Below are positions 28,554-49,051 of a DNA stretch of 64,000 nucleotides, piece after piece. Numbering within the stretch: position 1 is the first letter of the stretch; every line of letters begins with the position of its first letter. Source of the DNA: Hymenobacter sp. J193 (GTDB taxonomy: Bacteria; Bacteroidota; Bacteroidia; Cytophagales; Hymenobacteraceae). The notes beneath the pieces are model-generated. The model did not search any database, was not told the DNA's origin, and saw nothing but the letters and a program-made list of their open reading frames with translations. The stretch covers positions 1,702,001 to 1,766,000 of the forward strand of contig NZ_JAJONE010000001.1 in assembly GCF_024700075.1 (NCBI RefSeq), read 5' to 3'. A program made the position numbers and the translations under genes.

Positions 28554-28578
28554 CGTGGATGAGAACTACGGCGGATTG

Positions 28579-33401: not shown

Positions 33402-33413
33402 CCTTGTCGGGGC

Positions 33414-33444
33414 TTGCGTAGTAAGCTACAGCCATTTATCTTTG
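33414..33444 (+). promoter_or_regulatory. Complete Bacteroidota promoter (-33 TTG, -7 TATCTTTG) for rpsU
   Basis: TTG at 33414-33416, a 20-bp spacer, and TATCTTTG at 33437-33444, 39 bp before the start codon. Spacing and both elements fit the Bacteroidota consensus. Confidence 0.75.
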
Positions 33445-33482
33445 CAGCCCTTAACAGGAGAAGTCTCAACCTCATTGACCAT

Positions 33483-33680: not shown

Positions 33681-33705
33681 CTGACGCGACCTGTGGTCAG
33701 GATTT

Positions 33706-33746
33706 GACCGCCTGAAGGGCTATTCCAGCTTTTCAGGCGGTTTTTT
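33706..33746 (+). terminator. Rho-independent terminator after rpsU
   Basis: ACCGCCTGAA (33707-33716) pairs with TTCAGGCGGT (33732-33741), followed by TTTTT, 27 bp past the stop. Confidence 0.88.
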
Positions 33747-33814
33747 CGCGTTCGTACTTTTCAGTTTAATTCCCTACATTGGGTATTCCGACCTCAACAG
33801 TCGGCCTTTTGTAT

Positions 33815-34702
33815 ATGGAGTTATTTTTTTCGTATCTGCGGTCGGAGCGGCGCTACAGCCCGCACACGCTGCTTTCGTACCAGACCGATTTACGGCAGTT
33901 CAGCGAGTACCTGAAGACCGCCTACGAGCTGGACGACGCGGCCCTGGCCGACCATACGCTGATTCGCTCCTGGATTGTGGAGCTGATGCAGCAGAACCTG
34001 GCCCCCCGCACCGTCAACCGCAAAATTGCCTGCCTCCGCTCCTACTACAAGTTTCTGCTGCGCACGGGAGCCGTCAGCAAAAATCCGATGCTGCGCATCA
34101 CGGCCCCCAAAATGGCCAAGAAGCTGCCGGACTTCGTGCCCGAGGAGTCGTTGAACGGGCTGCTGAACTCGTTTGAATTTCCGGAGTCGTTTGAAGGCGC
34201 GCGCGACCAACTGGTGCTGGAGCTGCTTTACGGCACCGGCATCCGCCTCTCCGAGCTGCTGGGCATTCGCCACGACGACCTGAGCTTGCCCGGCCGCACC
34301 GTGCGCGTCACGGGCAAAGGCAACAAGCAGCGCATTGTGCCCCTCAACCCTACGCTGGTGCAGGTGCTGGAGCGGTATATAGCCCGGAAGCAACAGGAAT
34401 TCCCGGCGGGCGGCAACGCGGGCGGCCCCCTGCTCGTTACAAACAAGCAGGAACCGCTCTACGAAAAGTTCGTGTATCGCACCGTGAAGCACTATTTAAG
34501 CCATATCACAACGGCCGCCTCGCAGCAGCACCCACACGTGCTGCGGCATTCCTTTGCCACGCACCTGCTCAGCAAAGGCGCCGATCTGAATGCCATTAAA
34601 GAGCTGCTGGGCCATGCCAACCTGGCCGCCACGCAGGTGTACACGCACTTATCGATTGATAAGCTGAAAGCGGTTTTCGAAAAGGCCCATCCCAAGGCCT
34701 AG
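33815..34702 (+). CDS. Tyrosine recombinase (XerC/XerD family)
   Basis: 295 residues, the normal length of chromosomal Xer recombinases that resolve chromosome dimers at dif. N-terminal SAM-like domain (YSPHTLLSYQTDLRQFSEYL, APRTVNRKIACLRSYYKFLL) and the catalytic set Arg144 (GTGIRLSELLG), Lys168 (GKGNKQR), His241-x-x-Arg244 (HVLRHSFATHLL), His267 (LLGHANL) and nucleophile Tyr276 (TQVYTHLS). All active-site residues are intact. The start at 33815 (MELFFSYLRSERRYS) is the family N-terminus. Location between rpsU and hpf, with no phage genes, argues for a housekeeping Xer rather than a phage integrase. Whether C or D cannot be told. Confidence 0.93.
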   Translation: MELFFSYLRSERRYSPHTLLSYQTDLRQFSEYLKTAYELDDAALADHTLIRSWIVELMQQNLAPRTVNRKIACLRSYYKFLLRTGAVSKNPMLRITAPKMAKKLPDFVPEESLNGLLNSFEFPESFEGARDQLVLELLYGTGIRLSELLGIRHDDLSLPGRTVRVTGKGNKQRIVPLNPTLVQVLERYIARKQQEFPAGGNAGGPLLVTNKQEPLYEKFVYRTVKHYLSHITTAASQQHPHVLRHSFATHLLSKGADLNAIKELLGHANLAATQVYTHLSIDKLKAVFEKAHPKA

Positions 34703-34737
34703 TTGTTTCTTTTTTCTACTCCCTAACCCCACTACTG

Positions 34738-35037
34738 ATGAAAGTACAGATGCAATCGGTGCATTTCGATGCCGACCAAAAACTGCTCGACTTCATTCAG
34801 AAGCGCCTTGATAAACTGGAAACCTTCTATGACCGCGTGACGGAAGGTGAAGTGATTCTGCGCCTCAACAACAAGGATGGTATAGCCAATAAAACGGTAG
34901 AAATAAAAGTACTGGTGCCCGGCACCATGCTGTTTGCTCAGGAAGATGCCGGCACCTTCGAAGCGGCTACCGACGCTGCCGCCGACAGTTTGAAGCGCCA
35001 GATCACCAAGTATAAGGATAAGATGGTCAGCCACTAA
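34738..35037 (+). CDS. hpf: Ribosome hibernation promoting factor, short form
   Basis: 99 residues of the HPF/RaiA family: MKVQMQSVHFDADQKLLDFI, QKRLDKLETFYDRV, VEIKVLVPGTMLFAQEDAGT, FEAATDAAADSLKRQITKYKD. It binds the 30S subunit at the mRNA and tRNA channel and promotes inactive ribosomes in stationary phase. It lacks the C-terminal dimerisation domain of long HPF. Starts 35 bp after the recombinase gene and ends at a strong terminator, so the two probably share a transcript. Confidence 0.93.
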   Translation: MKVQMQSVHFDADQKLLDFIQKRLDKLETFYDRVTEGEVILRLNNKDGIANKTVEIKVLVPGTMLFAQEDAGTFEAATDAAADSLKRQITKYKDKMVSH

Positions 35038-35063
35038 CCAGCTGGCAACTCATAGATTTTAAT

Positions 35064-35100
35064 AAAAAGCCCCGCCTGACGATGTCAGGCGGGGCTTTTT
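35064..35100. terminator. Bidirectional terminator between hpf and the metK unit
   Basis: AAAAAGCCCCGCCTGAC / GTCAGGCGGGGCTTTTT is a perfect 17-bp stem with a 3-nt loop. T runs on both strands let it serve hpf (+) and the 43-residue ORF/metK unit (-). Confidence 0.93.
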
Positions 35101-35115
35101 ATATTTCGGGCTTGC

Positions 35116-35247
35116 CTAGTGCTGCACGTAATACAGGAACTCACCCGTGCTGACGCCCGCGCGGTAGATAAAGTACGCCGCTAGCACCGCTAGTCCAAGA
35201 CGGGCGGGCTTGCTGGCCGGCAGCAGGGCTTCCATTAAGCGAAGCAT
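35116..35247 (-). CDS. 43-residue membrane peptide downstream of metK
   Basis: A short ORF with ATG at 35247 and TAG at 35116: MLRLMEALLPASKPARLGLA, then VLAAYFIYRAG and a C-terminal GEFLYYVQH. It has one hydrophobic helix (about residues 17-31) with positive charges before it. The gap to the metK stop is 12 bp and a bidirectional terminator follows its own stop closely, so it appears to be the last gene of the metK transcript. Function unknown. Support is positional and compositional; it is too short for length statistics. Confidence 0.55.
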   Translation of the reverse strand: MLRLMEALLPASKPARLGLAVLAAYFIYRAGVSTGEFLYYVQH

Positions 35248-35259
35248 AAGCGTTAGCGT

Positions 35260-36522
35260 TTACAGGGCAAACTCGGCTTTGATCTGGTCTACGTAGTCGA
35301 GCTTTTCCCAGGTAAAGGTTTCTACAGTGCGGGTGCTGCCATCGGCAGCCTGCACCTGCTTGGTACCGGGCTGGCGGCCCATGTGCCCATAAGCGGCCGA
35401 CTCAGCAAAAATCGGGTTCTGCAAGCCTAGGCGCTGCACAATGGCATAGGGGCGCAGATCGAACAGCTTCTGCACCTTGTCGGCTATTTCGCCGTCGGTG
35501 AGTTGGTGGCCGAAGGCGCCGTTGGCTTTGGTGGTGCCGTAGGTGGTTACGAAGACGCCTACCGGCTGCGCTACCCCAATGGCGTAGGCTACCTGCACCA
35601 GCACCTGGTCGGCCACGCCGGCGGCTACCAGGTTTTTGGCAATGTGCCGGGCCGCGTAGGCTGCCGAGCGGTCTACTTTCGAAGAATCTTTGCCGGAGAA
35701 GGCGCCGCCTCCGTGGGCACCTTTGCCGCCGTAGGTATCCACAATGATTTTGCGGCCGGTGAGGCCGGAGTCGCCGTGAGGGCCACCAATCACGAACTTG
35801 CCTGTGGGGTTGATGTGGTAGGTGATATCGGCGGTAAACAGCGCCTGAACTTCCTCGCCCAGCTGCGCCTTTACCCGCGGAATCAGGATGTGGATAATAT
35901 CCTCCTTGATGCGGGCCAGCATAGTTTCCTCACTTTCGTCGAAATCATCGTGCTGGGTGCTTACCACAATGGTTTCGATGGCCTCGGGCGTGTTGTCGTC
36001 GTTGTAGCGGATGGTTACCTGGCTTTTAGCGTCGGGGCGCAGGTAGGTCATTTCCTGTCCGGCCTTGCGAATGGCCGACAGCTCGCGCAGCAAGCGGTGC
36101 GAAAGGTCGAGGGCCAGAGGCATGTAGTTCTCGGTTTCGCGGGTGGCGTAGCCGAACATCATGCCTTGGTCGCCGGCGCCCTGCTCTTCGGCCGTGGCGC
36201 GCTCCACGCCCTGGTTGATGTCGGCCGACTGCTCGTGCAGGCGGTTCATCACCTCACAGGTGTCGGCGTTGAACAGGTACTCGGGCTTGTTGTAGCCGAT
36301 GCGGCGGATAACTTCCCGAATGATGGGCTCGGCCTCCACGTGAGCGGTCGATTTGATTTCGCCGGCTACTAGCGCAAAATCGGTAGTTACCAAGGTTTCG
36401 CAGGCTACTTTGGCCGTGGGGTCCTGGCGCAGATATTCGTCGAGGATGGCGTCGGAAATCTGGTCGGCTACTTTATCAGGGTGACCTTCCGAAACAGATT
36501 CGGAGGTGAACAGGTACGGCAT
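35260..36522 (-). CDS. metK: S-adenosylmethionine synthetase
   Basis: 420 residues. Makes S-adenosylmethionine from methionine and ATP. Conserved segments: MPYLFTSESVSEGHPDKVADQ (first 20 residues match the family start), GDQGMMFGYA, the P-loop-like GGPHGDSGLTGRKIIVDTYG and GAFSGKDSSKVDRSAAYAAR. The start at 36522 is chosen on this motif; the frame opens 14 codons earlier without conservation. Upstream lies a TAnnTTTG element; no SAM riboswitch could be made out in the 70-bp leader. Confidence 0.98.
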   Translation of the reverse strand: MPYLFTSESVSEGHPDKVADQISDAILDEYLRQDPTAKVACETLVTTDFALVAGEIKSTAHVEAEPIIREVIRRIGYNKPEYLFNADTCEVMNRLHEQSADINQGVERATAEEQGAGDQGMMFGYATRETENYMPLALDLSHRLLRELSAIRKAGQEMTYLRPDAKSQVTIRYNDDNTPEAIETIVVSTQHDDFDESEETMLARIKEDIIHILIPRVKAQLGEEVQALFTADITYHINPTGKFVIGGPHGDSGLTGRKIIVDTYGGKGAHGGGAFSGKDSSKVDRSAAYAARHIAKNLVAAGVADQVLVQVAYAIGVAQPVGVFVTTYGTTKANGAFGHQLTDGEIADKVQKLFDLRPYAIVQRLGLQNPIFAESAAYGHMGRQPGTKQVQAADGSTRTVETFTWEKLDYVDQIKAEFAL

Positions 36523-36591
36523 CAGCTTGTAAGGTAGAAGTACGCGAGGGGCCGGCAGCCCCACCCTGCCTCTTGAGAATCAGGCAGGCCG

Positions 36592-36599
36592 CAAAGCTA
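36592..36599 (-). promoter_or_regulatory. -7 promoter element for metK
   Basis: TAGCTTTG on the minus strand, 70 bp before the metK start. Confidence 0.55.
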
Positions 36600-36701
36600 C
36601 AAGTTTTCTACGTGGCGAATAAGCTGGTCTGGTAATTACATGCGCCGCAAGGCCCATACGTCAGACTTGAGCATGTATTTTCCTGCTTGCAGGGCAAACG
36701 A

Positions 36702-37607
36702 CTAGCTGGTAGCTGGCCCAAAACGCGCAGCAAGTTCCTGGCAAACCTGAGGCGGTACTCGCAGATATTCCAGCACGTCGGCCGTTTTTTCGGATGGCTT
36801 GCCGTTCTTGTCGGTTTCGATGGTTACATTTTCCAGGGAAAGGAAACAGCAGTCGGGGTCGGAGGGGGCAAGATAGACGTGCAGGCGGCCAAACGGGGCC
36901 ATTTCGTCCTTACTCGTGTGTAGCTCCAGGTGGTTCCAGTCAGCGGCTTCAAGGGCCAGCTTGGTAGCGGCAGCATCGGCAAATGGCGTGGCGGGCCGGG
37001 GCAGCGTCCGTTTTTCCGCCCACTCGTTGGAAAGCTCCGAGAAGGGCACTTCCGACTGGCTGCGGGGCATGTTCCACGTCATCAGGAGAATGATCAGAAA
37101 CTCAGCCAGCCAGATAAGGTAAAGGAAAATTCCGCTGATAGTTAAGCCAAAGATGCTCCAGGTTCCTTCGGCGGCAATGGAGGGCAGGGCCCCCAGCAAG
37201 GTGCCGGGGCTTAGCAGCAAGCCCAGAAATACATCGGCCTCGAAGGTGGTGTGCGTGAAGGAAGCGCGGCTGCCCAGGCTTTCGGTTTCGCCGGCGCCGG
37301 CCAGCAGGGTCAGGTACACGCACCACTGCACGTACCAGGCCCATAAAGCCACTGCCAAGCCCAGCCAGCCTACCAAAGCCGGATTGCGCAGCTTCCCGGC
37401 CTTGGTAACGGCTCGGAGCACGAAGCCGAGCAGCAAGCCAAACCCCAGCGTAAAGGCAAAATTGAGGTAGATAAAAGGGATATACCACACAGCATACACG
37501 TACACGAAGGCCAGCAGAACCGCCGCCACCGCTCCTACCAGCAGCAAGCCAAGAATACCGCTCACGGTGAAGCGCCCCGATGGTTGATAGTAAACAGGTG
37601 AAGTCAT
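36702..37607 (-). CDS. Membrane protein of unknown function
   Basis: 301 residues, not assigned to a family. Five or so hydrophobic segments lie in the first 185 residues (ILGLLLVGAVAAVLLAFVYVY, YIPFIYLNFAFTLGFGLLLGF, PALVGWLGLAVALWAWYVQW, VFLGLLLSPGTLLGALPSIA, IFGLTISGIFLYLIWLAEFL). The last 110 residues are soluble, with a mixed alpha/beta look and a Cys pair in SDPDCCFLSLENVTIE. The pattern of membrane part plus a soluble tail suggests a small envelope protein. It lies upstream of metK on the same strand with 179 bp between. A perfect 14-bp palindrome lies 54 bp upstream of its start. Confidence 0.7.
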   Translation of the reverse strand: MTSPVYYQPSGRFTVSGILGLLLVGAVAAVLLAFVYVYAVWYIPFIYLNFAFTLGFGLLLGFVLRAVTKAGKLRNPALVGWLGLAVALWAWYVQWCVYLTLLAGAGETESLGSRASFTHTTFEADVFLGLLLSPGTLLGALPSIAAEGTWSIFGLTISGIFLYLIWLAEFLIILLMTWNMPRSQSEVPFSELSNEWAEKRTLPRPATPFADAAATKLALEAADWNHLELHTSKDEMAPFGRLHVYLAPSDPDCCFLSLENVTIETDKNGKPSEKTADVLEYLRVPPQVCQELAARFGPATS

Positions 37608-37661
37608 AAAAGGGAATAGGTGAAAAACGACTCAACCTAGCACTTTCCGTTTGACTTATCC

Positions 37662-37675
37662 GCTAAATATTTAGC
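37662..37675. promoter_or_regulatory. Perfect palindrome GCTAAATATTTAGC
   Basis: A 14-bp perfect palindrome in the gap upstream of the membrane protein (start 37607) and just after the S9 peptidase stop (37747). It may be an operator. Its half TAAATA/TATTTA resembles, but does not match, the TTTAGR-N4-TCTAAA sites at 44.3 and 45.8 kb. Confidence 0.35.
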
Positions 37676-37746
37676 CTTTCCCGGGTTATCGGCGCTTTCA
37701 CCCTACCTGAAATGGCTTTTCTCGCCATCTACTTTGCCTAGCCAAG

Positions 37747-40188
37747 TCAGTTTTGCCCGGTTGCTCCCGGCGCTGGGCCTGCTGGTTTCAGGTTGGTATT
37801 GAAGAGCTTAAGAATACGCCGGTATTCGTCGGTCCAGGAGGAAGGCTCCACGAAGCCGTGGTCTTCGACGGGGTATACGGCCAACTCCCAGTTTTCCTTT
37901 TTCAACTCAATGAGCCGCTGAGAGAGGCGCACAATGTCCTGGAAGTGCACGTTGGTATCCACCATGCCGTGGCACATCAGCAGCGCGCCTTTCAAGCCCT
38001 CGGCGTAGTAGATGGGTGAGGAACGGGCGTAAGCCAGGGAGTCATTGTAAGGCTCGTTGAGGATGTTGTCGGTGTAGCCGTGGTTGTAGTGTGCCCAGTC
38101 GGTAACGGAGCGCAGCGCGGCCCCGGCCCGGAACACCTCGGGCTGGGTGAACATGCCCATGAGCGTGATGAAGCCCCCGTAGGAGCCCCCGTAGATACCG
38201 ATGCGCTGCGGACTCACGCCGTATTTCTCCACCAGCAGCTTGGCGCCGTCAATGTGGTCGTCGAGGTCTTTGCCGCCCATGTAGCGGTAGATACCGGTGC
38301 GCACGTCGCGGCCGTAGCCGCTGGAGCCGCGGTAGTCGATGTCCAGCACGGTGTAGCCCTGGTCGGCCAGCAGGTTGTGGAACATGTACTCGCGGAAGTA
38401 CTGGCTCCACCACTTGTGCGCGTTCTGGAGGTAGCCGGCCCCGTGCACGAATACCACGGCCGGGCCCTGGGGCGCAGCGTTGGCGGGGCGATACAGGCGG
38501 GCATACACCTCGGCCCCGTCGCGGGCTTTGATGGTAATAATTTCCGGGTCGCGCCAGGGGTAGCTTTCAAACTCCGGCGTGGTGCTGTGGGTAAGCTGCC
38601 GCATTTTCGCGCCCGGCTTGTTGTCCATCACAAACAGCTCCCAAGGCTTGTTGGCGTAGCTATAGCGCACGAGCAGCGTCTTTTCATCGGGCGAGAGAGT
38701 TACTTCACTAGCCCCGGGGCGGGAAGTAAGCTGAGTGAGTTGGCCGCCCTCCAGGGGCATCTGGTAGAAGTGCTGCTCGCCGGGGTGGGTTTTGTTGGCG
38801 GTGAGGTACCAGGTTTTCTTGTCTTGGCTGAGCTGCGCCTGCTGAATCTCAAACTTGCCGCTGGTCAGGGCTTTCTTCTGGCCCGTGGTCACGTCCACCG
38901 TGTAAAGGTGGGAAAAGCCGGTTTCCTCGCTCTGAAACCAGATGCGGCGCGAGTCGGGCAGCCAGCCCACATTGCCAGCCTCGTAGCCAATGCCGGGGCC
39001 GTTGATCCAGGCTTCGTCGCGCTGCCGGTCGAGCAGGCTGATTTTCTGGGTGGTTGGGTCGAGGGCCACAATCCAGCGGTCCTTGTTGTCCTGGGAACGA
39101 ATGACCAGGAAAGCACGCTGGCCGTTGTCGGCCCAAAACGGGCCGTAGGGCACCACGCGGCGCACCTCAGTGGCGGGCTTGCCGGCTTTGGTTTTGGCGG
39201 TGTCGGTGGGGGCTTTGGCCGTGAGCTGGTACTCCTTGCGGTAAGCCGGCAGCTCGTCCAGCCCTTTCAGCTCCCTGTAGCCCAGCACAAACGTGGTGTC
39301 ACGCCCAATATCGTAGAGGCCCAGCTCGTAGGCCGTTTGGGGTGCCCCCACCTTCGAGCGGGTCGGAATTTCCTCGGTGAAGCCTGATATGGTGACGAAG
39401 TTAGGCACCAGCGCCAGCTTATCGGCGGCCGGTTCCTGCACCAGGGTGTAGGTCACGTAGCACCCATCGGGACTGAGCTGCAGGTTCTCCACGGTTTTGC
39501 TGCCCAGCCAGATCCCCTTGGGCCGCAGCCGCAGCAGGGCTTTTTGGGCCCGCTCCCGCGCTTTGGCATCCTGGTCGCGCTGCCGGATTACCTGAAACAG
39601 CGCCAGCTGCTGGGCCTTCAGAAACTTAGCCGACTTATCCAGCTCGCCGGGGCCGGGCCGGTTGCCGCGCCGGAAATCGGTGCGCTGCACGGTTTCGCCG
39701 GTGGCAGGGTCCCAGGTGAACAGGTTGCCGCCGCGGGTATAGCTGATGAGCTTATCCTGCAAGGCGAAATCGGCCTCGGTTTCCCGCTCGGCGGTGTTGG
39801 TGACACGGCGCACCCGTTGGTTTTTCAGGTCCAGCAGGTAAATATCCCCGTCCTTCTCGTACACTTTGCGCTGGTGGCGCTGGTCGTATCGACCCCGCAC
39901 CGAAGGCAGCCCGCGCTGCTCGGCCAACGACACTTTGCGTGGCGTGCCGCCTGCGGGGCTCAGCACATAAAGCGAGTCGCGGCGGGCTTTGGCGGGGTTC
40001 CACTGGAAGTATATGTGTTTGCCGTCCTCGCTCCAGTACGGGGCCGAGGGCAACCCGCCCAGCCACTGCGCCGGCTCACGCATAATCTTTTCGACGGTGA
40101 GCGGGGCCAGGGCCGACGGAGCCGTTTGGGCCAGGGCCGGCGCGGCCAATGAGGAAGCTCCAAAAAGGCTTAGGTAAACAACACGCAT
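37747..40188 (-). CDS. S9 family (dipeptidyl peptidase IV-like) serine peptidase
   Basis: 813 residues with signal peptide MRVVYLSLFGASSLAAPALA, so exported. A DPP IV-type beta-propeller fills residues ~50-560 (for example APYWSEDGKHIYFQWNPAK, ENLQLSPDGCYVTYTL, AQLSQDKKTWYLTANKTH). The alpha/beta-hydrolase domain follows: VVFVHGAGYLQNAHKWWSQYF, DIDYRGSSGYGRDVRTGIY, nucleophile Ser in GIYGGSYGGFITLMGMF, Asp in GMVDTNVHFQD and His in YPVEDHGFVEPSSW. All three catalytic residues are present. It probably removes dipeptides from periplasmic peptides. It lies 81 bp downstream of an HD-domain gene on the same strand. Confidence 0.92.
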   Translation of the reverse strand: MRVVYLSLFGASSLAAPALAQTAPSALAPLTVEKIMREPAQWLGGLPSAPYWSEDGKHIYFQWNPAKARRDSLYVLSPAGGTPRKVSLAEQRGLPSVRGRYDQRHQRKVYEKDGDIYLLDLKNQRVRRVTNTAERETEADFALQDKLISYTRGGNLFTWDPATGETVQRTDFRRGNRPGPGELDKSAKFLKAQQLALFQVIRQRDQDAKARERAQKALLRLRPKGIWLGSKTVENLQLSPDGCYVTYTLVQEPAADKLALVPNFVTISGFTEEIPTRSKVGAPQTAYELGLYDIGRDTTFVLGYRELKGLDELPAYRKEYQLTAKAPTDTAKTKAGKPATEVRRVVPYGPFWADNGQRAFLVIRSQDNKDRWIVALDPTTQKISLLDRQRDEAWINGPGIGYEAGNVGWLPDSRRIWFQSEETGFSHLYTVDVTTGQKKALTSGKFEIQQAQLSQDKKTWYLTANKTHPGEQHFYQMPLEGGQLTQLTSRPGASEVTLSPDEKTLLVRYSYANKPWELFVMDNKPGAKMRQLTHSTTPEFESYPWRDPEIITIKARDGAEVYARLYRPANAAPQGPAVVFVHGAGYLQNAHKWWSQYFREYMFHNLLADQGYTVLDIDYRGSSGYGRDVRTGIYRYMGGKDLDDHIDGAKLLVEKYGVSPQRIGIYGGSYGGFITLMGMFTQPEVFRAGAALRSVTDWAHYNHGYTDNILNEPYNDSLAYARSSPIYYAEGLKGALLMCHGMVDTNVHFQDIVRLSQRLIELKKENWELAVYPVEDHGFVEPSSWTDEYRRILKLFNTNLKPAGPAPGATGQN

Positions 40189-40269
40189 ACGCTACGAAGG
40201 CTTGACAACGGGCCGCAACATACGCAGCCTGCGCCAAGGACTACTCCGCATGCCGGGCGTTGCAAGCCA

Positions 40270-40920
40270 CTACGCTAATCCGCCCTGCTCCCAGGCTTGC
40301 AGCTCAGCGTGCAGATTGCCCCGGGCAGCGTCTTCCAACTTTTCCCGAAACATGGTCGTGCGGTATAGGTGTGGAACTGATAACAGCTTCTCCAGCACCT
40401 TGCGCCGCCCGCGCCGGTAAAGTATATCAGGCACCAGGCGGTATTCCTCCCGAATCTGGCGGGCATACTGCCAGTACTCGGCTTCGGGGCGGCCCAGCAC
40501 CTGCAGGTCGGCATCCAGAAAGAAGTGCAGGTCGGTACCGTGCGGCGGCTGGGGTTGGGTGTGGTCCTGAGTACGCTCAATCAGCAGCGCCACCCGCTCC
40601 TGCCGTGCGGCGGGCCAGTTGCTGTGGCGCAGAAAATCGCGGGCCAGCTCAGCGCTGCGGGCTTCGTTATCGGAGCGCAAGGGGTTGTAGATGGCATCGT
40701 GAAACCACGCGGCCAGCTGCACCACGGCCACCTCCTGCAGATTGTCCGCGTGCTCGTCGATGGTCTGCAGCAGATCCTGCACGTGGGTAAGCGTGTGGTA
40801 GTGCCGACCAGAGCCGGTATACAGCTCCGTGAGTTGGCGCAGCACCCCCACCCGCCGGGCTTCGTCGGGTACTATCGGCGCCGTGAGCTGCTCCCAGCGG
40901 GCGGCCATGGTCGTTTGCAT
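40270..40920 (-). CDS. HD-domain metal-dependent hydrolase
   Basis: 216 residues of the predicted HD phosphohydrolase group. Metal ligands: His in RHYHTLTHVQDLL, His-Asp in LAAWFHDAIYNPL and Asp in HFFLDADLQVLG; DNEARSAELARDFL follows the HD pair as in the family. Basic residues near the end (ILYRRGRRKVLEKLL) may bind nucleotide or nucleic acid. ATG at 40920 is used; a second Met four codons on is also possible. Substrate unknown. A palindromic element lies directly upstream. Confidence 0.82.
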   Translation of the reverse strand: MQTTMAARWEQLTAPIVPDEARRVGVLRQLTELYTGSGRHYHTLTHVQDLLQTIDEHADNLQEVAVVQLAAWFHDAIYNPLRSDNEARSAELARDFLRHSNWPAARQERVALLIERTQDHTQPQPPHGTDLHFFLDADLQVLGRPEAEYWQYARQIREEYRLVPDILYRRGRRKVLEKLLSVPHLYRTTMFREKLEDAARGNLHAELQAWEQGGLA

Positions 40921-40957
40921 GGTGTTAAATGGTTGGGTAGTTGGGTGCCTGCATGGC

Positions 40958-41117
40958 TGTCATTGCGAGGAGGTACGACGAAGCAATCCGTCCTGGTCTA
41001 TACTCGACCCATCTTTCTACCAGAAAGCCCTTACTTATCGCACAGGTAAGAGCTTTTCACATTTTAGGGCTTTGGGCATTGCTCAGGATGAATTGCTTCG
41101 CTATGCTCGCAATGACA
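40958..41117. repeat. Interspersed palindromic element, copy 3 (TGTCATTGCGAG family)
   Basis: Perfect 12-bp outer arms TGTCATTGCGAG (40958-40969) and CTCGCAATGACA (41106-41117). Inside, GAAGCAATCCGTCCTG and the inverted CAGGATGAATTGCTTCG continue the arms with a few changes, around AAAGCCC and GGGCTTT. It separates the HD and GNAT genes; the rest of that gap holds nothing. Confidence 0.82.
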
Positions 41118-41138
41118 ACCATATAACCATGAAGCCAC

Positions 41139-41600
41139 TCAGTTAGCCGTGGGGGTGCCGTAGGGGTTATGGAGCTTGATTTCGAGGTACCGCTCGGGGT
41201 TGGCCAGGGGCTGGAACCCGAACTGCTGGTACAGGCCGTGGGCGTCCAGCGTGGCCAGCATCCGGCGGCGCACCCCCTGGATTTCCGGCGCGGCCCACAC
41301 CACTTCCATCAGCCATTTCGAAAGGCCCTGTCCCCGGAACTCGGGCAATACGAACACGTCACACAGCCAGGCAAAGGTGGCGCAGTCGGTAACGAGGCGG
41401 GCAAAGCCGGCCAGCCGGCCATCGGGCGCAAACAAACCGAAGTTCAGGGAGTTGGCAATAGCGCACTCCAGGGTGGCGAGGGGCATGTTTTGCGCCCAGT
41501 ACGAGTCCTGACTCAGGTAGCGGTGGATGGCCGCAATATCCAGGCGGGCAGGGTCGGAGCTGATGACGAACTGGCTGACGGGGTGCTGAAACTCGGGCAT
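41139..41600 (-). CDS. GNAT family N-acetyltransferase
   Basis: 153 residues with the GNAT acetyl-CoA site: CDVFVLPEFRGQGLSKWLM carries the R-x-x-G-x-G/A loop, preceded by strand RLAGFARLVTDCATFAWL and followed by MLATLDAHGLYQQFGFQPL, the usual last helix. The N-terminus SQFVISSDPARLDIAAIHRYL is the common acceptor-side helix. Acceptor unknown. A promoter element TAGCTTTG lies 26 bp upstream. Confidence 0.88.
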   Translation of the reverse strand: MPEFQHPVSQFVISSDPARLDIAAIHRYLSQDSYWAQNMPLATLECAIANSLNFGLFAPDGRLAGFARLVTDCATFAWLCDVFVLPEFRGQGLSKWLMEVVWAAPEIQGVRRRMLATLDAHGLYQQFGFQPLANPERYLEIKLHNPYGTPTAN

Positions 41601-41625
41601 AGACGAAAATCAGAAAGCTGAAAAA

Positions 41626-41633
41626 CAAAGCTA
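41626..41633 (-). promoter_or_regulatory. -7 promoter element for the GNAT gene
   Basis: TAGCTTTG on the minus strand, 26 bp before the start at 41600. Confidence 0.55.
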
Positions 41634-41703
41634 ATGCCCTTACCGACCCGCGCAATTTTTCGTAGCATTTACTTCATCTGGCTTTCCCTAGCTGCTTTCT
41701 GTC

Positions 41704-43098
41704 ATGAAAAGACTCTACACCGCGCTATTGCTGCTGTTTTGCTGGCAATACTCTCTGCTCGCTCAGCCCGCCTCGGTGCCGGTTGGCGCTACCACCGTCA
41801 GCATCCGCACACTGGCTACGGGGTTCGATACGCCCTGGGAAATGCTCTGGGGTCCCGACAACCAGCTCTGGCTGACGGAGCGCCCCGGCCGTATCAGCCG
41901 CGTGAACCCCGAAACCGGTGAAAAAACTCTGCTGCTCACGGTGCCCGACGTAACAGAAAACGGCGAAAGCGGCCTGCTGGGCATGGCCCTGCATCCCAAC
42001 TTCACCGCTTCGCCCTACGTGTACGTCGTGTACAACTACACCCAGGACGGCCTGCGCGAAAAGCTGGTGCGCTACACCTACAACGGCACTGTGCTTACCG
42101 ACCCGCAAGTGCTACTGGAAAATATTCCCGCGAGCCCCTATCACAACGGTTCCCGGCTGATCATTCTGCCCGACCTCACTATGCTGATGTCTACCGGTGA
42201 TGGCAACATCGACTATGAAGCCCAGAACATAGCCTCACCTAGAGGCAAAATCCTGCGCCTGAACCTGGATGGTACCGTTCCCGCCGATAACCCTACTGCC
42301 GGTAGCCGCGTGTACACGCTGGGCCACCGCAACCCTCAGGGCCTCGTGCGGGCACCCTCGGGCCGCATCTACAGCTCCGAGCACGGCCCCAGCAACGACG
42401 ATGAAGTAAACCTGATTGAGGCGGGCCGCAACTATGGCTGGCCCACGGTGCACGGTTTCTGCAACCTGGCCGCCGAAGCCACTTTCTGCGCGGCCAACAA
42501 CGTGCGGGAGCCGCTCTACGCCTGGACGCCCACCATTGCCGTGTCGGGCCTCACCTACTACGACCACCCGGCCATACCCGGCTGGCAAAACTCGCTGCTG
42601 CTACTGAGCCTGAAGGCCGGCCAATTGCTGCAGCTGCCCCTCAATACTGCCGGCGACGCCCTGACCGCTGCGCCCAACCTGGTGCTGAATAAAGAAGCCG
42701 GCCGCCTACGAGCTATCTGCGTGTCGCCGGCCGGGCGGGTGTACGTGGGCACCAGCAACCGGGACGGCAGCGGTTCACCCGCCGCCTCCGACGACCGGAT
42801 TATGGTGCTGGAAAACCTGGCCTATACCCCGACGGCCACCCGGCAGCCAGCTTACGCTACACTGGACGTGTGGCCTAACCCAGCGCATGAAAAGCTGACC
42901 GTAAGCTTCCCGGCTCCGCTGGTACGAGGAACCCAGCTGGTGCTGCAGGATGCACTGGGCCGGACGGTTCGCTCGGAGCCGCTGGCGGCTGGTAGCCGCA
43001 CACATACTGTTTCACTGAAGGCATTGCGGCCGGGCGTGTATCAGGCCTTGGTAAAAACTTCTGCGCGCCTCTACCGCCAGCGCATTGTGGTGCAGTAA
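41704..43098 (+). CDS. PQQ-dependent sugar dehydrogenase with T9SS sorting domain
   Basis: 464 residues. Signal peptide MKRLYTALLLLFCWQYSLLAQ, then a soluble glucose dehydrogenase-like propeller: LATGFDTPWEMLWGPDNQLW, VTENGESGLLGMALHPNF, SPYHNGSRLIILP, LGHRNPQGLVRAPSGRIYSS, EHGPSNDDEVNLIEAGRNYGWP, which include the catalytic-region His and calcium/PQQ ligand areas. After residue ~385 comes an 80-residue C-terminal module, LDVWPNPAHEKLTVSFP to GVYQALVKTSARLYRQRIVV, typical of type A T9SS signals. It is therefore probably secreted or surface-attached by type IX secretion. A different, lipoprotein member of the same propeller family is at 21-22.4 kb. Confidence 0.9.
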   Translation: MKRLYTALLLLFCWQYSLLAQPASVPVGATTVSIRTLATGFDTPWEMLWGPDNQLWLTERPGRISRVNPETGEKTLLLTVPDVTENGESGLLGMALHPNFTASPYVYVVYNYTQDGLREKLVRYTYNGTVLTDPQVLLENIPASPYHNGSRLIILPDLTMLMSTGDGNIDYEAQNIASPRGKILRLNLDGTVPADNPTAGSRVYTLGHRNPQGLVRAPSGRIYSSEHGPSNDDEVNLIEAGRNYGWPTVHGFCNLAAEATFCAANNVREPLYAWTPTIAVSGLTYYDHPAIPGWQNSLLLLSLKAGQLLQLPLNTAGDALTAAPNLVLNKEAGRLRAICVSPAGRVYVGTSNRDGSGSPAASDDRIMVLENLAYTPTATRQPAYATLDVWPNPAHEKLTVSFPAPLVRGTQLVLQDALGRTVRSEPLAAGSRTHTVSLKALRPGVYQALVKTSARLYRQRIVVQ

Positions 43099-43106
43099 GG
43101 AAAGCA

Positions 43107-43137
43107 TGTTGTAGCCGACGAAGCATTGGCTACAACA
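43107..43137 (+). terminator. Hairpin after the secreted sugar dehydrogenase
   Basis: TGTTGTAGCC (43107-43116) and GGCTACAACA (43128-43137) form a perfect 10-bp stem with an 11-nt loop, 9 bp after the stop. There is no T run, so termination strength is uncertain. Confidence 0.4.
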
Positions 43138-43197
43138 CAAGCCCTCAGACTGAGTTGCGACGCGAAATTCCGTCTGGTGCGCGCCACACTTCTCATA

Positions 43198-44184
43198 TCA
43201 CATCAACCGGTGCCGTTCGTTTTTAACGACGTTTTCCAGCGTCCAGGAAATTTCCTGGGTGAACGGATGCTGGCGCACCGGGCAGTCGGGCATGTGGCAG
43301 TGCGAGCAGGCCGCGAAGGTGCAAGGGTCAGCATGCACAAACATTTCGACCGGCACGGCAAACTCCTGGCTGAATAGGTGTTCGATGCTGTGAACCTGCG
43401 CGTGGGTCTGCTCCAGGGAAAAATAGTATGGCATCGTCACGTGGCAGTCGATGTGCAGGTTGGCCCCGTAGCGCACCACGCGCAGGTTGTGCACGTCAAT
43501 CCAGGCCGGCTCGCGGTGCTCCTGCAGCTCGGCCACTACGTGCTGCACGGTGGCCTCGTCGGTTTCATCCATCAGCCCTGACACCGAACGACGTACCATG
43601 CGGTAGCCATTCACCACAATGAATACGCCCAGCAGCAGCGCCGCGCCCGAGTCGAACAGCACGTTGTCGGTGAAGACGACCAACAAGAGCGCCACGCACG
43701 AAACCAGGGTACTCACGGCGTCAAGGTAAAGGTGCTGCCCGTCGCCCACCAGCGTGGGAGAGTGATGCTCACGCCCGGCCCGCACCAGCAGAAAGCCCAC
43801 GCCCAGGTTCACCAGAGCCGTGAAGGCCAGCAGCACCATGCCCCAGTCGGGCTGGGCAATGGTATGCGGGTGCAGCATAGCCTGCAGGGCCGAATAGAAG
43901 ATGTACACCCCGGCCATGAGAATCAGGCCGCCCTCGAAGCCCACGGAGAAGTGCTCAATCTTGCCGTGGCCGTAGGGGTGGTTTTCGTCCTTGGGCAGGC
44001 TGGCTAAGTAAATACTATAGAGCGCAAAGCCACTGGCTACCACGTTGATGATAGACTCCAGCGCGTCGGTGAGCACGGCCTGGGAGCGGGTGAGCAGCCA
44101 GGCGTAGAACTTGACGGCCACCAGTACCACGCTTACCACCAGAGAAAGCAGAGCAAAGCGCGTTTTGAGGGGCAATGAAAACAT
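43198..44184 (-). CDS. Cation diffusion facilitator (CDF) transporter
   Basis: 328 residues. An inner-membrane divalent cation/proton antiporter, usually an exporter. Six helices in the first 210 residues; site-A residues lie in LTDALESIINVVASGF (a DALES form instead of the commoner HxxxD) and LYLDAVSTLVSCVALL, with DENHPYGHGKIEHFSV between. The cytoplasmic domain (HNLRVVRYGANLHIDCHVTM) is followed by a Cys/His tail, DPCTFAACSHCHMPDCPVRQ, with five Cys that could bind metal. The start at 44184 (MFSLPLKTR) is favoured over one 22 codons upstream. It is divergent from the Nramp gene across a 185-bp gap with a metal-regulator-type palindrome. Confidence 0.92.
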   Translation of the reverse strand: MFSLPLKTRFALLSLVVSVVLVAVKFYAWLLTRSQAVLTDALESIINVVASGFALYSIYLASLPKDENHPYGHGKIEHFSVGFEGGLILMAGVYIFYSALQAMLHPHTIAQPDWGMVLLAFTALVNLGVGFLLVRAGREHHSPTLVGDGQHLYLDAVSTLVSCVALLLVVFTDNVLFDSGAALLLGVFIVVNGYRMVRRSVSGLMDETDEATVQHVVAELQEHREPAWIDVHNLRVVRYGANLHIDCHVTMPYYFSLEQTHAQVHSIEHLFSQEFAVPVEMFVHADPCTFAACSHCHMPDCPVRQHPFTQEISWTLENVVKNERHRLM

Positions 44185-44293
44185 AGGCGGTAAACCGAAC
44201 GGCGGGGCGCAAAATTCCGGGAAAATTCCGGCACCAGCAGGTATACGCAACTTTTTACAACAAAATCGGTAAGCAGACTGTCTTAAAAATAAA

Positions 44294-44309
44294 TTTAGAT
44301 ACGTCTAAA
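44294..44309. promoter_or_regulatory. DtxR/MntR-like operator upstream of the Nramp gene
   Basis: TTTAGATACGTCTAAA: 6-bp inverted halves around 4 bp, 61 bp before the Nramp start and 110 bp before the divergent CDF start. TTTCTTTG, one base off the -7 consensus, follows at about 44315. The same TTTAGR-N4-TCTAAA layout recurs at 45806-45821. Similarity to DtxR-family boxes (TTAGG halves) is inferred. Confidence 0.6.
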
Positions 44310-44369
44310 AACTGTTTCTTTGTACGGCTAAGCTCTTCTGCATCTGTGCCGCTGCTTCTTTCTAACTCA

Positions 44370-45755
44370 ATGCCCAAAACCTTACCCGCACCCAATCCGG
44401 CTGTTCCCGATACTCCTGCGGCTGATGCTCCTTTGGAAAGCGGCTGGCGCAAGCCGCGCACGGCCCCATCCTTGCGCGAAGTCTACGCCAGCATCAAGGT
44501 GCCCGGCCAGGACGCCTCGTTCTGGCGCAAGCTGATGGCTTTCTGGGGCCCGGGCCTGATGGTGGCCGTGGGCTACATGGACCCCGGCAACTGGGCCACC
44601 GACATTGCCGGTGGCTCGCGCTTCGGCTACACGCTGCTGTCGGTTATCCTGATTTCCAACCTGTTTGCCATGCTGCTCCAGCACCTGGCGGCCAAGCTGG
44701 GCATCGTGACGGGGCGCGACCTGGCCCAGGCCTGCCGGGACCATTTTTCCAAGCCGGTGGCCATGGTGCTCTGGCTGTTCTGCGAAATTGCCATTGCCGC
44801 CTGCGACCTGGCCGAAGTTATCGGCTCGGCCATTGCCCTGAACCTGCTGTTTGGCTTGCCGCTGCCCTGGGGCGTGGTACTCACCATCCTCGACGTGCTG
44901 GCGGTGCTCTACTTCCAGAATAAAGGCTTCCGGGTTATCGAAAGTATCGTAGCGGGCCTGATCGTGCTGATTTTCGGCTGTTTCGTCTACGAAATCCTGG
45001 TTTCCAACCCCGATTATTTGGGCATTGCCAAAGGGCTTGTGCCTCAGAAAGAGGTAGTCACCAACCCCGGCATGCTTTACATTGCCATTGGTATTCTGGG
45101 GGCTACCGTGATGCCGCATAATCTGTACCTGCACTCCAGCATTGTGCAGACGCGCCAGATCGAGCAAACCGAGAGCGGCCGCCGCATGGCCATCAAATTT
45201 GCCACCATCGACTCTACGGTAGCCTTGTTTCTGGCCTTCTTTGTGAATGCGGCCATCCTGATAACGGCGGCGGCCACGTTCCACAAAAACGGCTTGTTTG
45301 ATGTGGCTGACATCAACGATGCACATAAGCTGCTGGCACCGGTCTTAGGAGCCGGTGCCGCTGGTGCTGTGTTTGCCATTGCGCTGCTGGCGTCGGGCCA
45401 GAATTCTACCCTGACCGGCACGCTGGCCGGGCAGATCGTAATGGAGGGCTTCCTGAACCTGAAACTCAAGCCCTGGCTGCGCCGCCTTATTACGCGCGGT
45501 ATTGCCGTGGTGCCTGCCCTCATTGTAACCATCATCTACGGAGAGAAAGGCACCGCCGATCTGCTGGTGCTCAGTCAGGTGATTCTGAGCTTCCAGCTGA
45601 GCTTTGCGGTGGTACCGCTGGTGCTGTTCACGGGCAGCAAGGCCAAAATGGGCGTGTTCGTAAACCGCCCTTGGGTGCAATGGCTGGCGTGGCTGGTATC
45701 CGGTATCATTATCGTGCTCAACCTTTACCTGCTCTACGAAACCTTCCTGGGCTAA
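44370..45755 (+). CDS. mntH: Nramp family Mn(II)/Fe(II) transporter
   Basis: 461 residues. Proton-coupled divalent metal importer of the inner membrane. The helix 1 metal-site motif is GYMDPGNWATDIAGGSRFGY (Asp and Asn of DPGN); helix 6 has GATVMPHNLYLHSSIVQTR with Met in MPHN; ASGQNSTLTGTLAGQIVMEGF is the consensus transport motif. About 11 helices. The ATG at 44370 is used rather than a GTG at 44346. An N-terminal tail of 55 residues is Pro/Ala-rich. It has its own terminator and an operator-like palindrome upstream, and neighbours an outer-membrane receptor with the same palindrome. Confidence 0.93.
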   Translation: MPKTLPAPNPAVPDTPAADAPLESGWRKPRTAPSLREVYASIKVPGQDASFWRKLMAFWGPGLMVAVGYMDPGNWATDIAGGSRFGYTLLSVILISNLFAMLLQHLAAKLGIVTGRDLAQACRDHFSKPVAMVLWLFCEIAIAACDLAEVIGSAIALNLLFGLPLPWGVVLTILDVLAVLYFQNKGFRVIESIVAGLIVLIFGCFVYEILVSNPDYLGIAKGLVPQKEVVTNPGMLYIAIGILGATVMPHNLYLHSSIVQTRQIEQTESGRRMAIKFATIDSTVALFLAFFVNAAILITAAATFHKNGLFDVADINDAHKLLAPVLGAGAAGAVFAIALLASGQNSTLTGTLAGQIVMEGFLNLKLKPWLRRLITRGIAVVPALIVTIIYGEKGTADLLVLSQVILSFQLSFAVVPLVLFTGSKAKMGVFVNRPWVQWLAWLVSGIIIVLNLYLLYETFLG

Positions 45756-45766
45756 CCGGTTGGCAG

Positions 45767-45794
45767 CGCGGCAGCTTACGCTGCCGCGTTTTTT
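45767..45794 (+). terminator. Rho-independent terminator after the Nramp gene
   Basis: CGCGGCAGC, TTAC loop, GCTGCCGCG and six T: a perfect 9-bp stem starting 11 bp after the stop codon. It makes the downstream receptor a separate transcription unit. Confidence 0.92.
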
Positions 45795-45805
45795 CGGCCC
45801 AAGAA

Positions 45806-45821
45806 TTTAGGCTCATCTAAA
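45806..45821. promoter_or_regulatory. DtxR/MntR-like operator upstream of the TonB receptor
   Basis: TTTAGGCTCATCTAAA has the same half-site and spacing plan as 44294-44309. It lies 24 bp before the receptor ATG and just after the Nramp terminator. Confidence 0.6.
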
Positions 45822-45844
45822 TAAATAAAGCACTAGCACCTAAA

Positions 45845-48112
45845 ATGAAACATATCCTACTACTGGTTTTCCTGTTTATCTTTTCCGTCAGCGGCCGGGC
45901 GCAGTCTACCGGCAAGCTGGTGGGAGTGGTCCGGTCGGATGGCAAGGAAGTTCCTTTTGCCAGCGTGGGGCTGAAAGGCACCACACTGGGTGCCACGGCC
46001 GATGAGCACGGCCGCTTCACGCTGGCATCGGTGCCGGCCGGCACGTACCGGCTGGTGTGCAGCGCGGTGGGCTACCTGGCCACGGAGCGGGGAGTTGCGG
46101 TAGCCGCCGGGCAGACAACCACCGTCAACCTCAGTTTGAACCCGAGTGCCAGCGCCCTGGGCGAAGTGGTAGTGAGCGGCACCCTGAACGAGGTGATGCG
46201 CGGGGAGTCGCCGGTGGCGGTGGAGCTGTACTCGCCCAAGCTGTTCCGGAAAAACCCAGCGGTGTGTTTGTTCGAGAACCTAGCCATGATCAATGGGGTG
46301 CGGCCCCAGCTCAACTGCAACGTGTGCGGCACCGGCGACATCCACATCAACGGGCTGGAAGGGCCCTACACAATGGTGCTGATTGACGGCATGCCGCTGG
46401 TTAGCTCCCTGGGCACGGTATACGGGTTGAGCGGTATCCCGAGCAGCCTGATTGAGCGGGTAGAAGTGGTAAAAGGCCCGGCCTCCACCCTCTACGGCTC
46501 CGAAGCGGTGGGCGGCCTTATCAACGTCATCACCAAAAACCCCAGCAAAGCCCCGCGCTTCTCGGCCGATGTACTGGCTACTTCCCACCGCGACGTGAAC
46601 CTGGACCTCGGCCTGGCCCGCACCGTTGGCTCTGCCTCTACTCTGCTCAGCACCAGCCTCTACCACTACACCCAGCGCCGCGACGTGAACGAGGATGGTT
46701 TCACGGACGTGCCCACGCAGCAGCGCATTTCGGTATTCAACAAGTGGAGCTGGGCGCGGCCCGAACAGCGCGTGGCCAACTTGGCGGGGCGTTATTACTA
46801 CGAAGACCGGTTTGGGGGGCAGCTGGACTGGGCGCCCAAGCACCGCGGTGGCGACAGGGTGTACGGGGAAAGCGTGTATACCAGCCGATACGAGCTGCTA
46901 GGCCAATATCAACTGCCCATTGCGGGCCAGAAGATACTACTCAGCGGCACCTACAACCAGCACCAGCAAAATTCGGCCTATGGCACCACATTGTACCGAG
47001 CTAGCCAGCGCGTGGGCTTCGGGCAGCTGACGTGGGCGCGGGAGCTGAGCATCCGCCACAGCCTGCTGGCGGGGGCCACCTACCGCACCACCTGGTACGA
47101 CGACAATACGCCCGCTACGGCCCGCCCGGCCGGCACCGAACCGCCCCGCAACCAGCCCGACCTGGTGCAATTGCCCGGCGCTTTCGTGCAGGACGAGTGG
47201 CGCCTCACGCCCGACGCTACCCTGTTGGCCGGCCTGCGCTACGACTACAACTCCCGGCACGGCAGCATCCTGAGCCCGCGCCTGAACTACAAGTGGGGCC
47301 GCCCCGACGGCAGCCGCGTGTGGCGCGTGGGCCTGGGCAACGGCTACCGGGTGGTAAACCTGTTCACGGAAGACCACGCGGCCCTCACCGGCGCCCGGCA
47401 GGTGGTGGTGCCTGAAGCCCTGAAGCCGGAACGCAGCTGGAACGTGAACGTGAACTACAACCGCTTCCTGACTACCCGCGGCGGCGGCACCCTCACCCTC
47501 GATGCCAGCCTGTTCTACACCTACTTCACCAACAAAATCAGCCCCGATTACGACACCAACCCCGACCAGATCCTGTACCGCAACCTCGATGGCTACGCCG
47601 TAAGCCGGGGCCTCACACTGAACTCCGAGTTTGCCCTGGCCCGCCCATTGAAAATTATGCTGGGCGTGACCCTGCTGGACGTATTCCGGCAGGAACGCAC
47701 CGCGGCTGGTCCGCTGCGGCGGGTGGAGCAGCTCCACTCCCCGCCGTTTTCGGGCACCTGGGCCGTGAGCTACACGCTGCAGAAGCTGGGTGTGGCGCTC
47801 GACTACACGGGCCAGGTGAGCAGCCCCATGCCGCTGCCGGTATTCCCCAACGACTTCCGGCCCGGCCGCTCCCCCTGGTTTGCCCTCCAGAACGTGCAGG
47901 CCACCCGCAAGCTGCGCGAGGGGCTGGAAGTGTACGGCGGCCTTAAGAACCTCTTCAACTTCCTGCCCCGCCACCCGCTGCTACGCCCTTTCGACCCCTT
48001 CGACAAGCAGGTGGGCGTGGATAACCCGCAGGGCTACACCTTCGATACCAGCTACAACTACGCGCCTATGCAGGGGCGGCGCTTGTTTCTGGGCATCCGG
48101 TACGCGCTGTAG
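45845..48112 (+). CDS. TonB-dependent receptor, probably for a metal ion or metal complex
   Basis: 755 residues. Signal peptide MKHILLLVFLFIFSVSGRAQ; carboxypeptidase-regulatory-like domain (residues ~22-105: GKLVGVVRSDGKEVPFASV); plug with LGEVVVSGTLNEVMRGESPV, an unusual NCNVCGTGDIHINGLEGPY, MVLIDGMPLVSSL, ERVEVVKGPASTLYGSEAVGG and LINVITKNP; then a 22-strand-type barrel ending GRRLFLGIRYAL. The Cys-x-x-Cys in the plug is rare in these mostly Cys-poor proteins and may bind metal or form a disulfide. Position after the Nramp gene, with a matching operator, suggests import of manganese, iron or a carrier of them. The exact ligand is not known. Confidence 0.9.
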   Translation: MKHILLLVFLFIFSVSGRAQSTGKLVGVVRSDGKEVPFASVGLKGTTLGATADEHGRFTLASVPAGTYRLVCSAVGYLATERGVAVAAGQTTTVNLSLNPSASALGEVVVSGTLNEVMRGESPVAVELYSPKLFRKNPAVCLFENLAMINGVRPQLNCNVCGTGDIHINGLEGPYTMVLIDGMPLVSSLGTVYGLSGIPSSLIERVEVVKGPASTLYGSEAVGGLINVITKNPSKAPRFSADVLATSHRDVNLDLGLARTVGSASTLLSTSLYHYTQRRDVNEDGFTDVPTQQRISVFNKWSWARPEQRVANLAGRYYYEDRFGGQLDWAPKHRGGDRVYGESVYTSRYELLGQYQLPIAGQKILLSGTYNQHQQNSAYGTTLYRASQRVGFGQLTWARELSIRHSLLAGATYRTTWYDDNTPATARPAGTEPPRNQPDLVQLPGAFVQDEWRLTPDATLLAGLRYDYNSRHGSILSPRLNYKWGRPDGSRVWRVGLGNGYRVVNLFTEDHAALTGARQVVVPEALKPERSWNVNVNYNRFLTTRGGGTLTLDASLFYTYFTNKISPDYDTNPDQILYRNLDGYAVSRGLTLNSEFALARPLKIMLGVTLLDVFRQERTAAGPLRRVEQLHSPPFSGTWAVSYTLQKLGVALDYTGQVSSPMPLPVFPNDFRPGRSPWFALQNVQATRKLREGLEVYGGLKNLFNFLPRHPLLRPFDPFDKQVGVDNPQGYTFDTSYNYAPMQGRRLFLGIRYAL

Positions 48113-48208
48113 TCGCAGCAGGACAGAGAGTGGGCCTGGCTCCACGCTTGCACCTTATGGCCGCAGGCGTGCGTATCAGGCGGCACCCTCCCTCCTTTTC
48201 CCGGACTT

Positions 48209-49051
48209 ATGTACTTTTTCCGTGTGCTGGCCGCCTGCCTGTGCCTATCCGTGGCTGCTCGGGCGCAGGATAAACCCAAAACCTGCCCCTACGATTCCGC
48301 CCATTTCAGCCTATTCAAGCCCGTGCCCCGCAACCAGCTGCGCCCCCTGCGGCCCGACCGGCCCGGCGTGACGGAAAGCCCATTTACGGTAGATGCCGGC
48401 CACTTTCAGCTTGAAATGGACGGCCTGCGCCTTATCAACTCCCGCGAGGACGATGAGCAGAGCCGCACCTGGAAAGTGGCCTACACCGTGGTCAAGCTCG
48501 GCCTCAGCCGCCGCACCGACGTGCAGCTGGAAGTGCCGCTGTACAAGATTGAAAAAGAGCGCACCGCCGATGCGCCCTGGCAGCGCCGCGCCAGCTTTGG
48601 CGACATGACGCTACGGGTCAAGCACAACTTTCTGGGTGATGATCAGGAAGGCCCCGTGGCCATGGGGGTAGTGGCCTACACGCGCCTGCCCACCAGCGGC
48701 CGGGGCGCCGTGGAAGGTGGCCTTATCCTGCCCGTGAACGTGGAGCTGCCGCACCGCTGGAACTTCGACGTACAGCTGGAAGCCGACGTGAACTACGACC
48801 AGGAGACCCACAACCACTACCTGCGCCTGATGCCCTCCGTGGCCCTCGACCACGAGTTCAACGACACCTTCAGCTTTCTGGTGGAAGGCGTGACGCAGTG
48901 GGACGAGCTGCACAGCGGCTGGCGCTCCTCGCTCAATCTGGCGCCTATCATTTCCTTTGGGGAAAACTTTCAGGCCGACCTAGGCACGCATCTGGCGCTC
49001 AGCAAAGAAGCCGAGCGGGAATTCTTCGTGGGGTTCACGTACCGCCGCTAG
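48209..49051 (+). CDS. Outer-membrane transporter-like protein (MetA-pathway/phenol-degradation fold)
   Basis: 280 residues. Signal peptide MYFFRVLAACLCLSVAARAQ. The mature part begins LRPLRPDRPGVTESPFTVDA, GHFQLEMDGLRLINS, a hallmark of the family named after phenol-degradation outer-membrane proteins, and continues as alternating strands (ITVVKLGLSRRTDVQLEVPL-like, GDMTLRVKHNFLG, GAVEGGLILPVNVELP), ending EREFFVGFTYRR with a C-terminal aromatic-Arg. It follows the TonB receptor on the same strand after 96 bp and may be cotranscribed. The role is unknown; a part in metal uptake is only inferred from context. Confidence 0.78.
   Translation: MYFFRVLAACLCLSVAARAQDKPKTCPYDSAHFSLFKPVPRNQLRPLRPDRPGVTESPFTVDAGHFQLEMDGLRLINSREDDEQSRTWKVAYTVVKLGLSRRTDVQLEVPLYKIEKERTADAPWQRRASFGDMTLRVKHNFLGDDQEGPVAMGVVAYTRLPTSGRGAVEGGLILPVNVELPHRWNFDVQLEADVNYDQETHNHYLRLMPSVALDHEFNDTFSFLVEGVTQWDELHSGWRSSLNLAPIISFGENFQADLGTHLALSKEAEREFFVGFTYRR

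Follow-up and report, generated by a model that had tools for sequence, protein, structure and literature searches.

Hymenobacter sp. J193 encodes, next to each other, an Nramp-family metal importer and a TonB-dependent outer-membrane receptor, and we wondered whether these genes belong to one metal-uptake regulon that reaches across both membranes and, if so, what controls it and which metal it would serve. An initial annotation of the window (the whole stretch of DNA that was analysed, 64,000 nucleotides) had noted that each gene is preceded by a similar palindrome and that a terminator stands between them; together with a divergent CDF transporter and an outer-membrane protein, the locus had been read as a two-membrane manganese or iron uptake and efflux regulon. 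The observation itself was confirmed: both palindromes are present, the second one base short of perfect, and the terminator takes the form of a GC-rich stem with a T run. In positions of the window, the features are:

43198..44184, minus strand: CDF-family cation transporter gene, divergent from mntH (Cation_efflux domain, 2e-46, plus ZT_dimer)
44294..44309, no strand assigned: box 1, TTTAGATACGTCTAAA, with perfect half-sites
44370..45755, plus strand: mntH, Nramp-family Mn2+/Fe2+ importer (Nramp domain, 4.6e-135; NF001923)
about 45766..45793, plus strand: GC-rich stem with a T run, resembling an intrinsic terminator, in the mntH-receptor interval
45806..45821, no strand assigned: box 2, TTTAGGCTCATCTAAA, a perfect palindrome minus one base
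45845..48112, plus strand: type A TonB-dependent receptor, 755 amino acids (CarboxypepD_reg, plug and beta-barrel domains)
46316..46327, plus strand: codons of the plug motif CNVC (Cys158 and Cys161; residues 158-161), from receptor alignments
48209..49051, plus strand: outer-membrane beta-barrel protein (OMP) of the Phenol_MetA_deg family, from its domain match

Box 1 ends 60 bases before the ATG of mntH, for which a GTG at 44346 is an alternative start, and begins 109 bases from the likely ATG of the CDF gene at 44184, whose longest open frame reaches 44250; box 2 ends only 23 bases before the receptor ATG. Because the terminator-like stem splits mntH from the receptor gene, a box of the receptor's own makes sense. 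We found no sigma-70-type promoter at the locus, and neither the mntH nor the receptor upstream region matched a Bacteroidetes-type promoter consensus. The importer belongs to the MntH subfamily, passing the NCBIfam cut-off of NF001923 (641.3 bits against 430), and carries DPGN at residue 71 and ATVMPH at residue 245 of its 461-residue form; we take DPGN and AxxM to be the metal-site motifs of MntH. The CDF protein found its best model in the MntE equivalog NF052621 but reached only 187.7 bits against a cut-off of 500, and its identification as an MntE exporter could not be supported. Of the two-membrane regulon first proposed, the uptake half is well supported by the comparisons below and the efflux half is weak: CDF is a frequent divergent neighbour, its efflux role unproven, so that the interpretation as a whole is partly supported.

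To ask how specific the boxes are, we searched for the exact pattern TTTAGRN4TCTAAA, its symmetric form TTTAGRN4YCTAAA and the 14-base core TTAGRN4YCTAA. In the window, six matches at up to two mismatches compare with 3.2 expected, and 13 of 100 shuffles reach six; such statistics are uninformative, and whole genomes were therefore used. Across the 5.66-Mb genome the exact pattern matches solely at boxes 1 and 2, and the symmetric form matches four times against once for a backwards control. Its two further matches precede a second mntH on contig C4, a plasmid, and are one site assembled twice, leaving three distinct places: before mntH, before the TonB receptor gene and before the plasmid-borne second mntH. 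The box, which resembles what we take to be the DtxR/MntR operator (TTAGG-N4-CCTAA-like), thus precedes both genes of the locus and is rare elsewhere, bearing out the earlier expectation that it would be found before metal genes. The core adds one site, C1:2220809; no metal gene was seen beside it, and we took it as chance.

Contig C4 (200,696 bases) contains two stretches, 27000-46600 and 127600-147200, that lie 100.5 kb apart and are 99.95% identical over 19.55 kb, and is therefore probably a plasmid of about 100 kb assembled as a dimer. The plasmid holds the box, mntH (85% identity), which in one copy is split over two frames, and an OMP gene (38%); no receptor gene was seen beside them. 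A tblastn search of plasmids with the receptor returned 1,444 records, all below 60% identity, the best 40 of which are distant receptors.

We then followed the receptor through the phylum, counting as type A orthologs those with at least 38% identity, below which the score falls sharply. Type A orthologs occur in 70 of 296 phylum genomes (J193 included) and in 10 of 61 genomes of the genus. A plug motif C[NSG][VI]C is present in 38 of the 39 ortholog loci first fetched, the exception being the receptor of genome G009, whose gene lies in two pieces in two frames; both plug cysteines are invariant in alignments of 18 and of 34 type A receptors, and a CxxC is missing from the first 300 residues of all 20 genus paralogs compared (about 30% identity). 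The 16-base box, at up to one mismatch and no more than 300 bases from the longest ATG frame, precedes 21 of the 39 orthologs and none of the 20 paralogs. A wider set comprised 80 loci listed from a scan of named genomes, in which at least 80 exist; 76 could be tested upstream, and among these the 14-base core at up to one mismatch precedes the receptor in 71 (37 exact) and is absent in five, against 5.95 on average and at most 14 in single-base shuffles. The four loci dropped have too short an upstream region, and one of them has an exact box. By comparison, 48 of 664 other genes, with regions slightly shorter than those of the receptors, carry the core at the same stringency. Within the genus, the ten other type A genomes all have a box before Nramp, and nine have one before the receptor, the sole box of the remaining genome (G045) preceding Nramp; CDF is divergent in eight of the ten, and an OMP homolog follows in all ten.

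These counts bear on whether the boxes might be chance matches or structural repeats with no regulatory meaning. At up to two mismatches the pattern is in fact rarer in the J193 genome than its backwards control (182 against 399), and, while all 61 genus genomes searched hold at least one box, the control also matches about once per genome (31 matches in 30 sister genomes), so that the position of a box is what counts. Position, however, is where chance would fail, as the exact form in J193 is restricted to metal genes and the placement is conserved across the phylum against the controls just given; we regard chance as scarcely credible.

Which regulator, then, would read the boxes? In classical DtxR, IdeR, MntR and ScaR regulons, a DtxR-family regulator and a TTAGG-N4-CCTAA-like operator stand before an Nramp or ABC manganese importer, and the J193 locus has the same ingredients, a DtxR-type operator before Nramp in a genome with a DtxR-family regulator; unlike those regulons, it includes an outer-membrane receptor, of two exchangeable types (see below). 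The initial annotation had proposed looking for a DtxR/MntR gene beside the box. In J193 itself this failed, the sole DtxR-family gene found lying far from the window, elsewhere on the chromosome, between neighbours that we take, from open frames and recall, to be fabH-like and mnmE-like genes. A PF02742 search gave two matches, one near each end of contig C1 and 99.94% identical to each other; these are probably a single gene and an assembly overlap of a circular chromosome. In relatives the association holds: the flanks of 50 of the 80 listed loci contain a DtxR-family gene, which directly adjoins the receptor gene in divergent orientation in 43 of the 76 loci where an upstream gene is visible; none was seen in the flanks of the other 30, some of which are short.

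The DtxR-family protein counts ScaR and SloR among its four best solved matches, with an alignment spanning most of its length, and a Pfam scan of a relative found two Fe_dep_repress domains and a FeoA domain. It falls below the cut-offs of all four NCBIfam equivalogs listed, among them two MntR models and one MntR-like thermophile model, and so its name stays 'DtxR family, MntR-like'. We infer that this repressor acts on the two boxes. In an alignment of 50 sequences, its own and 49 of 54 cluster members drawn from the 80 listed loci, His79, Glu102, Glu105 and His106 never vary, and position 8 holds Asn in 37 and Asp in 13.

The DtxR family includes iron regulators and Nramp proteins transport both manganese and iron, and the locus could accordingly be an iron regulon, in which an IdeR-like DtxR repressor would control an Nramp carrying Fe2+ and a receptor importing an iron chelate. 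FeoB-like genes, named by eye, occur in the flanks of eight of the 80 listed loci, in five with a FeoA-like gene, and count against a pure manganese reading; the receptor is also weakly similar to siderophore receptor models, far below the cut-offs of all those listed. Against this, Glu at position 102 in all 50 sequences is as in manganese regulators, iron DtxR having Met and Cys at the positions equivalent to 8 and 102, and the importer stands well above the cut-off of the MntH subfamily model. On balance we consider an iron regulon rather unlikely.

Other neighbours widen the choice of metal further. At least one metal importer lies in the flanks of 34 of the 80 listed loci (ZIP in 19, Nramp in 10, ABC genes with ABC-3 or ZnuA domains in six; domains verified on representatives), and partners of the ZIP or ZnuA type leave the metal unfixed. 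With a cysteine plug, and CxxC being chemically suited to Zn2+, these neighbours could be taken for a zinc-uptake system. The regulator to which the receptor is linked, however, belongs to the DtxR family; zinc repressors normally belong to the Fur family, Nramp proteins normally do not carry Zn2+, and the ZnuA Pfam family includes manganese-binding proteins, all of which makes zinc a poor candidate. Thiolate is an unusual ligand for Mn2+, which we count against manganese. Nonetheless, we think it likely, on the comparative sequence evidence, that the locus is the core of a small DtxR/MntR-repressed uptake regulon for manganese (less likely iron), spanning both membranes and with an exchangeable receptor.

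The cysteine pair may have a redox role. A small thioredoxin-fold gene follows the receptor gene, directly or one gene later, in 22 of the 80 listed loci (for example L169:8086-8550); WCxxC is present in 22 of 23 such proteins, their N-termini look by eye like signal peptides, and the thioredoxin-like domain was confirmed in three representatives. This pairing of a CxxC receptor with a thioredoxin-fold protein in some lineages possibly reflects a thiol-redox gate. Neither open frames nor a domain scan revealed a thioredoxin-fold gene downstream of the receptor within the window.

Most genomes of the genus do not have a type A receptor, and we asked where their boxes lie. Thirty genomes were chosen from the 51 without type A, and their 57 boxes were traced individually: 29 precede Nramp, 16 precede a different TonB receptor of about 820 amino acids (type B), two precede an OMP gene, one of these apparently an out-of-frame reading over an Nramp gene, and 10 lie elsewhere. 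The box is thus conserved in relatives, both across the phylum and in the sister species. CDF lies within 250 bases of 24 of the 29 Nramp boxes. By barrel match, type B lies within 6 kb of Nramp in 25 of the 30 genomes and neither type does in five; an exact box precedes the receptor in 15 of the 25, and the other 10 have one before Nramp only. One more boxed type B gene, the sixteenth, belongs to G028 and stands away from Nramp there. G041, of the same genus, has no box before its type B receptor. The receptor is, then, a replaceable part, type B occupying the same place in many sister species.

The two receptor types have identical Pfam domains, and BLAST alignments between them are largely confined to the first 230-320 residues. 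The type B plug keeps Asp192, Glu193, His194, Glu197 and Asp199, and has no conserved cysteine, in 17 sequences. An OMP lies near 11 of 18 type B receptors; because it accompanies both receptor types as well as the plasmid mntH, it is likely to be an accessory pore. Beyond the genus, an exact core box accompanies four of the five closest type B homologs (L255-L259), and a DtxR-family gene is divergent in two. Among 24 more distant homologs (L260-L283), the box occurs once with a single mismatch and never exactly; 17 of them have a type-B-like plug motif, none with a box at one mismatch, so the motif alone is no mark of the regulon. J193 itself has one such type B-like receptor (42% identity) at C1:1982592-1984910 (L260), without a box.

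We reconstructed the history of the exchange on a tree of 42 Nramp proteins (from 41 genomes, plus the plasmid copy). The distribution of type A needs five changes, three of them forced by well-supported branches, and a single type A clade was rejected against type B (p-AU 0.00014). A quick receptor tree places the type A receptor of G045 apart from the nine others of the genus, which implies two changes.

Three sister genomes provided individual observations. In G021 a box is found 117 bases upstream of a gene for an OprB-family porin (L301:6259-7785), which could be another outer-membrane protein of the regulon. In G017 an OMP homolog (39%; L285:6448-7320) has its own box nine bases upstream, and in G015 a boxed receptor starts in a 308-amino-acid open frame (L235:7139-8062) and may be broken.

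How might such a locus work? When Mn2+ is plentiful, the Mn2+-bound DtxR-family repressor would occupy both boxes and keep mntH and the receptor gene off. Under Mn2+ shortage, the TonB-energised receptor, probably helped by the adjacent OMP, would carry the metal, free or in a complex, into the periplasm, from which MntH would move the metal to the cytoplasm. The plug cysteines may coordinate the metal, or may form a redox gate that is reduced by the thioredoxin-fold partner where one is present. Since the region around box 1 is common to mntH and the CDF gene, manganese might also activate efflux.

The usual view is that Mn2+ passes the outer membrane through porins, and few cases of its active uptake there have, to our knowledge, been described. 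In Burkholderia thailandensis, according to a review, MnoT with TseM provides TonB-dependent outer-membrane Mn2+ uptake, induced at low Mn2+, and MnoT works with a T6SS-secreted Mn2+-binding protein (PMC8602904); the function that we propose from sequence is alike. Closer still is an MntR-controlled TonB receptor of Stenotrophomonas maltophilia with the plug motif CQNC, followed by a periplasmic thioredoxin-fold protein (pTFP), described in a May 2026 report (PMC13217887). Both systems have a TonB receptor with a plug CxxC and an MntR-type box, close to mntH, and the thioredoxin-fold genes that follow the receptor in relatives' loci recall pTFP. They differ in the plug (CNVC here, CQNC there), in the operator (the core TTAGRN4YCTAA here, a 25-bp palindrome described there) and in the window's having no thioredoxin gene. 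Synteny of the CQNC module is reported there for Lysobacterales, Sphingomonadales and Opitutales, and the main text contains no word beginning 'Bacteroid-' (PMC13217887).

With these two systems described, the kind is known. In the literature searched, four points appear new: the occurrence of such a system across Bacteroidota, its DtxR-type box, an inner-membrane partner that varies, and the repeated exchange of two receptor types in one slot; we found no report of an MntR-controlled TonB receptor in Bacteroidota, a weak negative given that subscription papers are poorly covered, and MntR is not mentioned in the accessible part of the Riemerella ZntR paper. More tentatively, and with somewhat less than even confidence, we suggest that dedicated, MntR-controlled outer-membrane manganese uptake is widespread in Bacteroidota, with CxxC-plug receptors and receptors with an Asp/Glu/His-rich plug repeatedly swapped in a fixed regulatory slot.

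A plug C[NSG][VI]C together with an upstream TTAGRN4YCTAA is a signature by which such receptors could be predicted throughout a large phylum. For type B, prediction needs the box too, because homologs that have no box can carry a plug motif of this kind. As sister species have swapped receptors naturally, the question of substrate can be tested: if our reading is true, two distantly related receptors controlled by one switch should transport the same metal.
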